In this document: positions 25,777 to 37,183 of the stretch, in pieces | How positions within the stretch are numbered: position 1 is the stretch's first letter | Layout: every line of letters starts with the position of its first letter | Source: a virus | DNA: 46,120 nt | Virus record (IMG/VR): IMGVR_UViG_3300034082_001154 | Location: 1 to 46,120 of that record | Reading direction: 5' to 3' (one strand) | Notes under the pieces: model-generated | Databases searched by the model: none | What the model was told of the DNA's origin: nothing | Seen by the model: only the letters and a program-made list of their open reading frames with translations | Position numbers and translations under genes: made by a program

Positions 25777-25807
25777 CAAAGATACACTACTTTCCCGAAT
25801 AAACAAA
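25777..25807 (-). promoter_or_regulatory. Leftward early promoter
   Basis: Read leftward: TTTG (25807-25804), 19-bp spacer, TATCTTTG (25784-25777), a perfect consensus. The -33 box lies 22 bp from that of the divergent rightward promoter, with an A/T-rich track between. Confidence 0.85.
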
Positions 25808-25829
25808 TAAAAATATTTTTTTACAAAAG

Positions 25830-25860
25830 TTTGTAGTGTCAAAAAGTATTTGTACATTTG
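25830..25860 (+). promoter_or_regulatory. Rightward early promoter
   Basis: TTTG (25830-25833), 19-bp spacer, TACATTTG (25853-25860), a perfect consensus. Predicted start near 25866, about 17 nt before the first ATG at 25883. Drives the tiny-ORF and replication operon. Confidence 0.87.
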
Positions 25861-32994: not shown

Positions 32995-34503
32995 ATGTTC
33001 ACACTAAGAGATTATCAATTAGAAAATGTACTTGAAGTAGCACATGCGGTACACAATTACAAGCGTATAATTAACTGCATTGCTACAGGTGGAGGTAAAA
33101 CTAAGATAGCCATATCCATTACCAACAGAGCATTAAGCAAGGGTAAAACAGTGCTATTTATAACGGAAAGTGATAAGATATACAAGCAGTTAGATGCTGA
33201 AATAACAGACACAACCAACATCAACAGCACTGCAAAACTTAGCTACTTAGCACCTAATCGCTTATATCTTGCAATGGCACAAACATTAGCACGTAGGGCA
33301 GAACTGATTAAACAGTTCGCTACTATGGGTAACAGCCTATTAATTATCAATGATGAAGCGCACGTAGGCACAGCTACAAAACTACTACTACAGCTACCAC
33401 ATGCACTACTGATAGGGCTTACAGCTACCCCAGCTATGAAGTGGGCAAAACACCTACCAACGCTATACAATTCAATAGTAGTAGGCAAACAGCCTGAATG
33501 GTTAGTAGCTAACAACTACCTTATAAAGTATCAACATGCACAGGTAACAGCAGCAAATTTAAATAGTCTGCAAATCAAAGCAGGGGAGTTTACAGAGGAA
33601 AGCCAAGAACGTATTTTTGACACCGTTAATTCACACCAGTTTGTACTACAGCACCTACGCCAATACAGGTACACTAAATGTATGATATTTTGCGCATCAA
33701 TCAAATCGGCAGAGTCATTACATTCGTACCTGACCCAACAAGGCTATAAAGTTTGTACACAACATAGCAAATACGAAATACGTAGTGAATCAGTACAGGC
33801 ATACGAATTAGCACAATTTACAAACCTACATAGCGGTGTAAATATTTGTATCAGCATTGCATCAATGAATAAGGGCTTTGACTTTCCGCCAGTTGACTTA
33901 ATACTACTATACAGAGCAACTACAAGCCTACCATTATACTTGCAGATGTGTGGCAGGGCAAGCCGTACAAGCCCCGACACAGGTAAAGCAATGTGGACTG
34001 TACTTGATTACGGGGGTAACGGTAAGCGACATGGCAGATGGGATTACCCATGTATAAACGGTGAGCCAGTAGACTGGAATGTAGTTTGGAACACCATACC
34101 AAAAAAACGTGAAGGGGTAGCACCGATAAAAGAATGTCCGAAATGTAAATACCTATTGCCAATATTAGCACAAGAATGTAGTAATTGTGGGCATGTGTTT
34201 GTGAAAACAAAGCAGCCCAACGAGATTGAGCAGGTGCATATTGTTATGTTGGAGCAGCAAAACGCACAACTTAAAGAGATTAAAGGTAAACGCCTATCAC
34301 AACTAACCCCGATTGAACTTGCTAACTATGCAAAAATTAAAGATAAGAAACCGTATGCTGCAAGGGTAGCGAAAGCCTTAACACTTACTACCCCTACATA
34401 TATCTATGAGTACGCTAAAGCTATGGGATATAAAGAAAGTTGGGCAGATTTCAACGCACCAAGTTACGGAGAAAGAATTGATTTTTTCGACAAAATAGTT
34501 TAA
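32995..34503 (+). CDS. SF2 DEAD/DEAH-type helicase with C-terminal zinc ribbon
   Basis: 502 residues. RDYQ (5-8, Q motif), CIATGGGKTKIA (TGGGKT 31-36, motif I), LLIINDEAHVG (DEAH 120-123, motif II), LIGLTATPAMKW (motif III), then helicase C-terminal CMIFCASIKSAESLHSYL, ISIASMNKGFDFPPVDLILL and MCGRASRTSPD (Q.(C/I)GR..R, motif VI). After residue 375 a four-Cys zinc ribbon (CPKC...CSNC) leads to a helical tail. Resembles phage replication or repair helicases of the RecG/RAD3-like SF2 type. Its last codons overlap the promoter of the ncRNA at 34514. Confidence 0.9.
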   Translation: MFTLRDYQLENVLEVAHAVHNYKRIINCIATGGGKTKIAISITNRALSKGKTVLFITESDKIYKQLDAEITDTTNINSTAKLSYLAPNRLYLAMAQTLARRAELIKQFATMGNSLLIINDEAHVGTATKLLLQLPHALLIGLTATPAMKWAKHLPTLYNSIVVGKQPEWLVANNYLIKYQHAQVTAANLNSLQIKAGEFTEESQERIFDTVNSHQFVLQHLRQYRYTKCMIFCASIKSAESLHSYLTQQGYKVCTQHSKYEIRSESVQAYELAQFTNLHSGVNICISIASMNKGFDFPPVDLILLYRATTSLPLYLQMCGRASRTSPDTGKAMWTVLDYGGNGKRHGRWDYPCINGEPVDWNVVWNTIPKKREGVAPIKECPKCKYLLPILAQECSNCGHVFVKTKQPNEIEQVHIVMLEQQNAQLKEIKGKRLSQLTPIELANYAKIKDKKPYAARVAKALTLTTPTYIYEYAKAMGYKESWADFNAPSYGERIDFFDKIV

Positions 34504-34508
34504 CTTTG
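34477..34508 (+). promoter_or_regulatory. Promoter for the structured RNA before the primase gene
   Basis: ATTG (34477-34480), 20-bp spacer, TAACTTTG (34501-34508), which uses the stop codon of the helicase gene. RNA would start near 34513-34515, exactly at the first base of hairpin 1. Confidence 0.6.
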
Positions 34509-34513
34509 CAGAC

Positions 34514-34603
34514 CACTAGCGGCAACTAGTGACAAAGATATTATAACTAACCTTTAGTGGGGGATGCTTTGCCGAGCTGAACCCATTAAAGGTTAATTTT
34601 TTT
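34514..34603 (+). ncRNA. Candidate structured RNA: two hairpins with complementary loops, ending in a terminator
   Basis: Hairpin 1: CACTAG/CTAGTG (34514-34519, 34526-34531) closing the loop CGGCAA (34520-34525). Hairpin 2: a 13-bp stem (34549-34561 with 34582-34594, one G-U), a 4x4 internal loop GGAT/TGAA that allows stacked G-A pairs, a 3-bp stem GCT/AGC (34566-34568, 34575-34577) and the apical loop TTGCCG (34569-34574). The two six-base loops are exact complements, so a kissing interaction closes the RNA. T7 follows at 34597-34603, making hairpin 2 an intrinsic terminator. The segment at 34621-34632 can pair with the 5' arm of hairpin 2 (11 bp with one bulge), giving a competing anti-terminator. 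No known riboswitch consensus was recognised. Function and ligand unknown. Confidence 0.7.
34549..34603 (+). terminator. Intrinsic terminator (hairpin 2 of the structured RNA)
   Basis: AACCTTTAGTGGG / CCCATTAAAGGTT, 13 bp with one G-U, followed by AATTTTTTT. It would stop RNA before the primase-helicase gene at 34676 unless the competing pair with 34621-34632 forms or the polymerase reads through. Confidence 0.8.
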
Positions 34604-34675
34604 AACATACTCGCACCGTACCCACTACAAGGGAGAGGTTATATTTCCTAACTAAATTACTAATATTTTTACACA

Positions 34676-37183
34676 ATGCAAGAACTATCTGCCGTATTCG
34701 GGCAAGTACAGGAATTATTATCTGCTGGTATATCCATTGTACCAGTACGTGACAAAGCAGAAACAAAACAAGATGGAACTATCATACCTGCTAAAGTTGC
34801 CTATTCAGGTTGGAAACAATACCAATCTAATATAATTAGCAAAGAGGCGTTATGGTACGAGATGGATAAGCATAATACTACAGCTATTGCTATGGTATGC
34901 GGTGCAGTATCTGGTAACTTAGAGATAATAGACATAGACTGTAAGCACTGGAACGGTATAGATGGTAGACTTTTTAGCGATATACGCCAAATATACCCCG
35001 AACTATGGTACAGGCTGCGCATACACAAAACACCGTCAGGGGGCTATCACATACTATACAGAATTGCAGACGGTAAAGCGCAAGGGAATAAAAAATTGGC
35101 ATGGAAAGCAGATGTTAAAGAATGTGGTATTGAAACAAGGGGAGAAGGTGGTTACGCACTCGCACCGCCATCAATGGGCTATTCCATACATCAGGGTGCT
35201 AACATACCACTAATCACACAATCAGAGCGTGATAGCTTGATTAATCTTTGCATCAGCTACAACCAACGCATAAAGGCAGAAGTAAGCTACAAGCCCACTA
35301 AAAAACAGACTGACTACTACGATGAAAACCCATTCGACCATTTTAACGGTAGCATAGCAGCAGAGGACATATTAACAGCTAATGGTTATAAGATATTTAA
35401 TGACCATGATATGTACCGCAGGTGGACACGACCTAACAGAAATGAAGGGGGCGTATCTGTAACATTTCGCAAAGATTACCGATTATATTATTTTTTTACC
35501 ACCAGTACCGAATTTGAGGCGGGCAAATGGTTAACACCAGCAGCAGTACTATGTACTTTACAATTCGGTGGTGACTACAAAAAACTATACCGTCACTTAG
35601 TAGATAGTGGATATGGTAAAATTAAACATGAACATGAACAACGGATAATTAAGACCGCTACAGCCTATAATACCCCTACACCTGCTAACATATCAGATGA
35701 GGCAAAGCAGTTTGTACAGGACATACTACAAAAGGCTACAGAAACGCACCCACATGGCATATTTTGGGCGATAAATGACAAGGGCGGCACATACATCAGC
35801 CGAGAAAAATTGTACACCGTATCGCATGGCTTAGGCTATCGCTTACATAAAGAAGATGTAACCAAAATACAAGGGTACAAAATATGTCGTACCGATGCAC
35901 GTACATACTTTGATGAATTAAAATCATACATACATATCGAAGATGCCGAAGAGTATGAAACAGTTTTTAATGCGTTAGATGAATTTATCCAAAAGTCAGG
36001 CAAACATATTATTGCCAGCCTACCCATATTAGATACATCAGTCATACTGACCCCCACTAAACACCTATCATATAAGTTCTATAACAACTGCTATGCTACT
36101 ATTGATAAAGATGGAGTTGAAGTGCTACCCTACAGCAATCTACCAGCTAACAAATTAATATGGGAAAACAAAATACAACTACGTGACCTAACAGTAACAA
36201 CAGATAACACCCATAAAAATTCACTTTATTACAAATATCTTGACCTATCAGTTAGTGTTACACCGCACGTATTGCAATGTATTGGCTATCTATGCCACGA
36301 ATTTAAAGACGAATCAGACGCATATATAGTAGTATTAGTTGAGCAATGTCCCGACCCAAAGTCAGGGGGCGGTAGCGGTAAAAACATATTTAGCAATATG
36401 CTTAAATACGCTACAAGTGTTAAGAACCTGCCAGGAAGTCAAGTAGTATTAGATAAGGATTTTTTGCAGTCATGGGACTACGAAAAAGTACTATCAATAT
36501 CAGATGTGCCGAAAAAGTTTGATTTCCTATTTCTTAAAGAACTGTCAAGCGGTAACGGTATCAACAAAAAGTTATTCAAAAATATTAGTACCGTTGATGT
36601 GGGAGATATGCCTAAGCTATTAGTCAGCACAAATTACAGTTATGAGGTGTCAGACGGTGGTTTAAGGCGTAGAATTATACCGATTGAATTTACTGACTTT
36701 TTTACAAAAGCAGGTGGCGTAAATACCCACTTTGGCAAGATGTTTCCTACCGACTGGACTACCGAAGATTGGCAAGCCTACGACAACATTATCCTTGCAT
36801 CTATTCAGCAGTGGCTCAAGGTCATGAGGCTTACAGCCCCACAATTAACGGAAGGTGGGTGGCAAAAACAATTTGAACAAGAGTACGGATTATTAACTTT
36901 ACAGTTCATAGAGGAAAATATTACAGAATGGAAACTTATAAAAAAAGTGCAAGTTAAAGCGTTCAATAACACCTACGATACCTTTTATTCTGATAATGGG
37001 GGTAATAAATTGTATAAGTTATCATCTATACGGCTTAATTCAGCACTAGAAAGCTATTGTCAAAAACATGAAATACACTTTGAAAAACAAGTGCTAATCA
37101 AAGAAAATGGTATAGTTGATAGATATAAGTTATTTGATAGTCCCGAAAAAAATAGCAATTTAGCAGCGGAAGTGCCATTTTAA
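34676..37183 (+). CDS. Primase-polymerase fused to SF3 (D5-like) replicative helicase
   Basis: 835 residues. N-terminal Prim-Pol: LEIIDIDCKH (DID at 86-88, metal site), HKTPSGGYHILYR (SGGYH, 121-125) and CGIETRGEGGYALAPPS (153-165), the archaeo-eukaryotic primase trio. The C-terminal part holds an SF3 helicase: CPDPKSGGGSGKNIF with Walker A Gly/Lys (S563-N570), VLDKDFLQSWDYEKVLSISD (Walker B-like), KLLVSTNYSYEVSDGGLRRR (sensor N plus arginines) and IIPIEF. It makes primers and opens the fork, and it sits between a control RNA and the iteron origin. No polymerase gene was found, so elongation should use a host polymerase or an unrecognised one. Confidence 0.88.
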   Translation: MQELSAVFGQVQELLSAGISIVPVRDKAETKQDGTIIPAKVAYSGWKQYQSNIISKEALWYEMDKHNTTAIAMVCGAVSGNLEIIDIDCKHWNGIDGRLFSDIRQIYPELWYRLRIHKTPSGGYHILYRIADGKAQGNKKLAWKADVKECGIETRGEGGYALAPPSMGYSIHQGANIPLITQSERDSLINLCISYNQRIKAEVSYKPTKKQTDYYDENPFDHFNGSIAAEDILTANGYKIFNDHDMYRRWTRPNRNEGGVSVTFRKDYRLYYFFTTSTEFEAGKWLTPAAVLCTLQFGGDYKKLYRHLVDSGYGKIKHEHEQRIIKTATAYNTPTPANISDEAKQFVQDILQKATETHPHGIFWAINDKGGTYISREKLYTVSHGLGYRLHKEDVTKIQGYKICRTDARTYFDELKSYIHIEDAEEYETVFNALDEFIQKSGKHIIASLPILDTSVILTPTKHLSYKFYNNCYATIDKDGVEVLPYSNLPANKLIWENKIQLRDLTVTTDNTHKNSLYYKYLDLSVSVTPHVLQCIGYLCHEFKDESDAYIVVLVEQCPDPKSGGGSGKNIFSNMLKYATSVKNLPGSQVVLDKDFLQSWDYEKVLSISDVPKKFDFLFLKELSSGNGINKKLFKNISTVDVGDMPKLLVSTNYSYEVSDGGLRRRIIPIEFTDFFTKAGGVNTHFGKMFPTDWTTEDWQAYDNIILASIQQWLKVMRLTAPQLTEGGWQKQFEQEYGLLTLQFIEENITEWKLIKKVQVKAFNNTYDTFYSDNGGNKLYKLSSIRLNSALESYCQKHEIHFEKQVLIKENGIVDRYKLFDSPEKNSNLAAEVPF

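Follow-up and report, generated by a model that had tools for sequence, protein, structure and literature searches.

The window analyzed here, a 46,120-nucleotide stretch of viral metagenome DNA (IMG/VR record IMGVR_UViG_3300034082_001154), contains between two replication genes a compact unit made of a promoter-like sequence and two hairpins, the second of which has the form of an intrinsic terminator. The unit and the genes that flank it are as follows:

32995..34503, + strand: upstream gene, DEAD/ResIII helicase of 502 aa (Pfam PF04851/PF00271, PHROG 16)
34478-34603, + strand: whole unit, namely promoter, hairpin 1, 16-nt linker and terminator hairpin (read from sequence)
34478..34480, + strand: -33 element TTG, with a 20-nt spacer to the -7 box (sequence)
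34501..34508, + strand: -7 box TAACTTTG, consensus TAnnTTTG, within which falls the TAA stop codon of the helicase ORF (34501-34503) (sequence)
34514..34531, + strand: hairpin 1, 6-bp stem CACTAG/CTAGTG and loop CGGCAA (34520-34525) (sequence, RNAfold)
34532..34547, + strand: A-rich 16-nt linker between the hairpins (sequence)
34548..34595, + strand: hairpin 2, the intrinsic-terminator stem (sequence, RNAfold)
34597..34603, + strand: T7 tract of the intrinsic terminator (sequence)
34676..37183, + strand: downstream gene, Prim-Pol primase/helicase of 835 aa (Pfam PF09250, E 8e-10; PHROG 19930)

The terminase gene of the window lies 4 kb beyond the unit, which itself adjoins the replication genes. 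TTG-N20-TAACTTTG is a Bacteroidota-type promoter with Bacteroidota spacing, and the window contains 13 copies of the promoter pattern versus 4.3 ± 2.1 in shuffled sequence. Elsewhere in the window, promoter-like TTG-N19-21-TAnnTTTG patterns on the two strands begin less than 30 nt apart (25831 on the + strand, 25806 on the - strand), and 25806-25831 may be a promoter pair in the early region. Hairpin 1 is predicted to lie near the RNA 5' end. Hairpin 2 consists of a 14-bp outer stem, a symmetric 4x4 internal loop GGAT (34562-34565)/TGAA (34578-34581), a 3-bp inner stem GCT/AGC, and an apical loop TTGCCG (34569-34574) that is complementary to the hairpin 1 loop CGGCAA. Both hairpins are present in the MFE and centroid structures calculated with RNAfold for 34509-34603 (-31.7 kcal/mol, z = -5.7), and none of 200 shuffled sequences was as stable.

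A scan of the window for a box, a hairpin, a terminator hairpin and complementary loops found this one unit, whose score was matched in 0/100 dinucleotide-shuffled windows; 4/100 passed a looser cut, and the tighter cut had been placed just under the score of the window's own unit. The original prediction had put the chance of the six-base loop match at 1 in 4096, a figure that neglects the search space and is replaced here by the whole-window shuffles. Its other structural claims fared better: the CGGCAA/TTGCCG complementarity and the coordinates of the loops and of hairpin 1 were verified, hairpin 2 proved to extend one pair further on either side than the 34549-34594 proposed, and the promoter box and T7 terminator are present in the sequence and recur in other examples, with a T-run in all that were accepted. 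The internal loop is likewise present in the window and is not found in all leaders. A free RNA of about 90 nt, also claimed, is consistent with the predicted promoter and terminator, its ends being inferred.

Scanning viral contigs with the window's own loop letters gave mostly chance matches in other genomes, and only close relatives were retained. The -7 box TAACTTTG is kept in relatives L001-L003 and L005-L007, and both loops are kept in the window relatives whose DNA spans the region. In the diverged leader of L003, the hairpin 1 stem CACTAG/CTAGTG is replaced by CCAG/CTGG around the same loop, and the inner stem of hairpin 2 changes in a compensated manner from GCT/AGC to GCA/TGC, again with the loop unchanged; the stems thus have compensatory support. 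Because both loops are invariant among these relatives, the window's own loop pair is without covariation. In the window, the T-run is separated from the primase ATG by 72 nt, and a second promoter before the primase is therefore not excluded; a GGTTA...TAACC inverted repeat and a box-like sequence, TATATTTC, lie between the terminator and the ATG (34640-34675) and are kept in L003.

Loci with more distant helicases, taken like the others of the viral collection from metagenomes, carry the same kind of leader with different loop letters. L140, whose helicase is 59% identical to that of the window, has a promoter-like box, a hairpin loop AGGTAGAAGC and a terminator hairpin with GCTTCTACC; L153 has GGTAGAATC and GATTCTACC, which differ from L140 by one compensatory exchange; and L158, with a helicase only 31% identical to the window's, has GGTCGAATA and TATTCGGCC, with one G-U pair. 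Many further leaders were recovered when the L158 helicase and the L199 primase served as queries, and a hand count of the search outputs gives about 25 different loop pairs.

The clearest evidence that pairing between the loops is kept comes from groups of related leaders. In L225, L227 and L280 (alignment A3), in which the primase DNA is 83-92% identical, the loop pairs read GAGTAAG/CTTACTC, GAGCAAG/CTTGCTC and GGTCAAG/CTTGACC, so that 3/7 loop-loop pairs have changed on both sides and all still stand. The whole-structure values of A3 were reached in 0/500 shuffles, except for the number of pair types (7/500), and slid structures were at most 46% paired. Cultured Flavobacterium phages provide a second case, with loops GTGGAACG/CGTTCCAC in mymlan6-1, GTGAGACG/CGTCTCAC in filifjonk9-1 and GTGAGAAG/CTTCTCAC in morran9-1 and the rest of the leaders similar; in their alignment (A5), 3/8 loop-loop pairs have changed on both sides and all 29 structure pairs stand. 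Among L169, L171, L220 and L221, one pair is exchanged from A-U to G-C. These alignments hold only three or four sequences each, and the strength of the evidence thus rests on repeated, independent cases.

We also compared leaders with themselves and with each other, using 25 leaders picked for having a promoter box, a terminator and an ATG close by, with complementarity ignored, and taking as hairpin 1 the first hairpin of the RNAfold prediction. Matches of at least 6 nt between the hairpin 1 loop and hairpin 2 were found in 16/25 leaders versus 27/600 swapped combinations, some of the latter being between related leaders, and matches of at least 7 nt in 12/25 versus 8/600. As the scanner thresholds were chosen while the examples were being viewed, it is this swap control and the compensatory changes that carry the argument; the first loose scanners had a high background (40 real versus 29 shuffled hits), and for this reason only strict scores and independent controls were used. 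Loop-loop complementarity is maintained by compensatory changes, which is what an intramolecular kissing hairpin calls for; that the loops pair within one RNA rather than between two is inferred. In the absence of transcript data, loop-loop pairing and intrinsic termination ahead of the start codon are inferences, with good support from the sequence.

The order of elements recurs in leaders unrelated in sequence: a promoter box, hairpin 1 some 2-16 nt further on, a linker (10-32 nt, median 19 in 25 leaders), a terminator hairpin that often has an internal loop, a T-run and, mostly 8-25 nt beyond it, the ATG. By rough geometry with hand-entered stem lengths, the linker is long enough for an intramolecular coaxial stack in 23/25 leaders and too short for a straight one in the other 2/25. 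The GGAT/TGAA internal loop occurs with identical letters in the unrelated leader L171 and as near variants in L221 and L307. ACATT is present in the linkers of 12/25 leaders versus 3.3 ± 1.5 after shuffling, an enrichment that is suggestive only, since some of the leaders are related to each other and the motif was picked after looking. The strict whole-record scan of G396, G400 and G401 gave 3 units, and none in three shuffle rounds.

Units occur before replication genes, and sometimes before other genes, in both metagenomic and cultured phages. The mymlan/filifjonk/morran leader is carried by 46 database records, a count that includes GenBank and RefSeq duplicates of the same phage, and its bearers infect the named hosts Flavobacterium LMO6 and LMO9. 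The replication module behind this leader in mymlan differs from that in filifjonk and morran, so the leader is not tied to one protein. In phage snusmum6-1 there are three units, which differ in their loop pairs and are placed before a helicase, an endonuclease and a helicase-primase block, and in mumin-type phages a unit precedes an endonuclease. Also in mumin-type phages, one leader (L307 12675-12802, L313 1495-1656) stands before two different replication modules, comprising either a helicase and a VirE primase or another type of primase/helicase, and it likely marks a module-swap border. The primase of L228 is 84-89% DNA-identical to those of L225, L227 and L280, and its leader (1702-1850, loops ATCTGAC/GTCAGAT) is an unrelated replacement (47-55% identity) in the same place with the architecture retained, which suggests that leaders at this border turn over fast or recombine. 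The presence of the element is patchy: no such unit was found in the helicase-primase gap of L011, L149-L152 or L162, no strong unit in six other cultured Bacteroidota phages, and none in G046, a Bacteroidota genome with a similar primase.

Rfam 15 gave no match at gathering thresholds in the window or in 20 unit-bearing loci, cultured phages included; a permissive scan of the window returned noise only, and the covariance model of c4 antisense RNA (RF01695) matched neither the window nor the unit-bearing loci. No description of the class was found in the open-access literature searched, which did not cover the supplementary tables of structured-RNA surveys (e.g., PMC8040213). We consider it very likely, transcript data being absent, that this is a real structured RNA class that is missing from Rfam and apparently undescribed. 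The original prediction, that the window holds a kissing-loop RNA with a terminator and belonging to no known class, is supported, every example tested being without an Rfam match, and the element occurs more widely than it had supposed. The complementary loop changes on which it had hinged were found in related RNAs, the window's closest relatives keeping their loops invariant, and the proposed regulatory role remains an inference.

Several known systems resemble the unit in part. Satellite phage P4 halts transcription ahead of its replication genes via RNA pairing (PMC4825925), and its CI RNA with seqA and seqC shares with the unit a leader RNA before replication genes and, in P4, RNA-RNA pairing that leads to premature termination (PMC4825925). 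The position and terminator of the unit agree with termination of this kind, its dependence on RNA being inferred. However, CI RNA arises by processing of a longer transcript and is antisense to separate sites, whereas in the phage unit the partners are the loops of adjacent hairpins, one of them the terminator hairpin; the complementarity found was between hairpins 1 and 2 only, with no systematic search for short flanking sites like seqA and seqC. By analogy, P4 is the nearest known system in effect, and its design is not the same. The c4 RNA of phages P1 and P7 is linked to a leader, and whether the downstream gene is expressed depends on pairing of its loops with complementary sites (PMC12197685). 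The unit would resemble it as a phage RNA acting through loops, but c4 targets the region around the ant ribosome binding site, and no terminator-loop partner is described for it.

ColE1 RNAI/RNAII and the pT181-type attenuators control replication genes through fully complementary hairpin loops of 6-8 nt, like those of the unit; their partners are on two RNAs from opposite strands, whereas both partners of the unit are on one RNA from one promoter. In the pRNA of phage phi29, two complementary loops likewise vary in their letters and keep their complementarity, but that RNA is a packaging-motor part of different structure, and the unit is a terminator hairpin beside replication genes. Leader attenuators in general, such as ribosomal-protein leaders and riboswitches, have the promoter, structured leader, intrinsic terminator and gene of the unit. 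In contrast to them, no conserved ligand-binding core was seen in the unit, and its loop letters are free to change.

Given that a terminator separates the promoter from the start codon, we infer that the unit folds on itself and attenuates transcription of the phage replication operon, a reading to which we give a probability of roughly 0.5 in the absence of RNA data. RNA polymerase would start just ahead of hairpin 1 and yield a promoter-driven leader of about 90-95 nt. Hairpin 1, the A-rich linker and hairpin 2 would be made in turn, the loop of hairpin 2 would pair with that of hairpin 1, and transcription would mostly stop in the U-tract directly after hairpin 2. The replication gene, for which most examples show no recognized promoter after the terminator, would be made only by read-through, and the loop-loop helix may set hairpin 2 formation or the efficiency of termination. 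Because the terminator precedes the ATG and most examples leave no room for a promoter, the downstream gene would depend on transcripts that read through, whether begun at this promoter or further upstream. The promoter, the two hairpins, the terminator, the kept loop complementarity and the position before a gene are supported by the sequence alone, and the layout of an attenuator leader upstream of a same-facing gene is met; that the RNA exists with these ends, pairs within one molecule, controls read-through and responds to a signal is all inferred.

No signal or alternative anti-terminator fold that holds across leaders was found. A CCACTA/TAGTGG anti-terminator pairing, seen by eye in the window, is not kept in L003 or other leaders. 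Small ORFs start in hairpin 1 or the linker and cross the terminator to the next ATG in L175 (457-570, MTKNILLTPVRK...GFFI), L244 (2354-2475), L232, L236 and L280, running through hairpin 2; they may have arisen by chance or encode a leader peptide in some leaders only. No such ORF exists in the window, L153, L158, L169 or L308, so a leader peptide is not general.

The alternative that survives best, unlikely and not excluded, is a trans-acting, self-recognizing RNA whose loops pair with nascent leaders of other genome copies, making it a copy-number or superinfection sensor; on that reading, the loops diverge so that each phage recognizes only itself. In its favor, fully complementary loops of 6-8 nt recall ColE1-type kissing pairs, the loops of close relatives change yet stay complementary, units precede replication genes, and P4 controls such genes by RNA-directed termination (PMC4825925). 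Against it, both partners share one RNA, so an intramolecular helix should normally outcompete one between molecules; no clearly faster change is seen in the leader than at third codon positions (identity 0.70 versus 0.77, L225-L227); there is no longer complementarity to give a lasting duplex; and other genes follow some of the units, for instance the endonuclease of mumin-type phages. A bolder form, also unlikely and not ruled out, is a widespread class of Bacteroidota phage RNA in which the terminated leader recognizes its own kind and the loop pairs drift into compatibility groups. If this were true, replication-gene read-through would sense genome copies of the same phage and ignore others, an RNA-based control of superinfection or copy number.

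Also unlikely is a free structured small RNA acting elsewhere (by protein binding, as an anti-defense decoy or by pairing with host mRNA), placed before replication genes because of compact gene order and module borders. The unit has its own promoter and terminator, mymlan and filifjonk have the same leader ahead of different replication modules, and snusmum6-1 holds three different units; however, the T-run usually lies a mere 8-25 nt short of the ATG, the units are oriented toward the gene that follows, and an outside target should conserve sequence, yet only complementarity is conserved. An ordinary intergenic terminator and promoter, with loop complementarity as a by-product or merely as a stabilizer of the RNA 3' end, is very improbable: both elements are common between genes and the window's loop pair is merely 6 nt, but chance is largely refuted by the swap control together with the compensations seen in several lineages. 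The reading as an origin or a primer RNA in phage DNA replication, suggested by the adjoining helicase and primase genes, the defined promoter and the structured RNA, can be all but set aside, as the cumulative GC skew curves of the window, mymlan and snusmum do not turn at the unit, and one genome has three units.

We therefore favor the cis attenuator over a trans-acting small RNA, and on this inferred reading the unit would be comparable to P4 CI RNA. Because the leader is present in cultured Flavobacterium phages with named hosts, its ends, fold and effect are directly testable, with the loop variants found in nature serving as compensatory mutants already at hand. A class whose loop letters change would tend to escape covariance searches that rely on sequence. 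Phage leader RNAs controlling replication genes have so far been represented by a few enterobacterial systems (P4, P1); the unit described here, if it acts as inferred, would add a compact design spread over Bacteroidota phages, in which complementarity is kept while the letters change.
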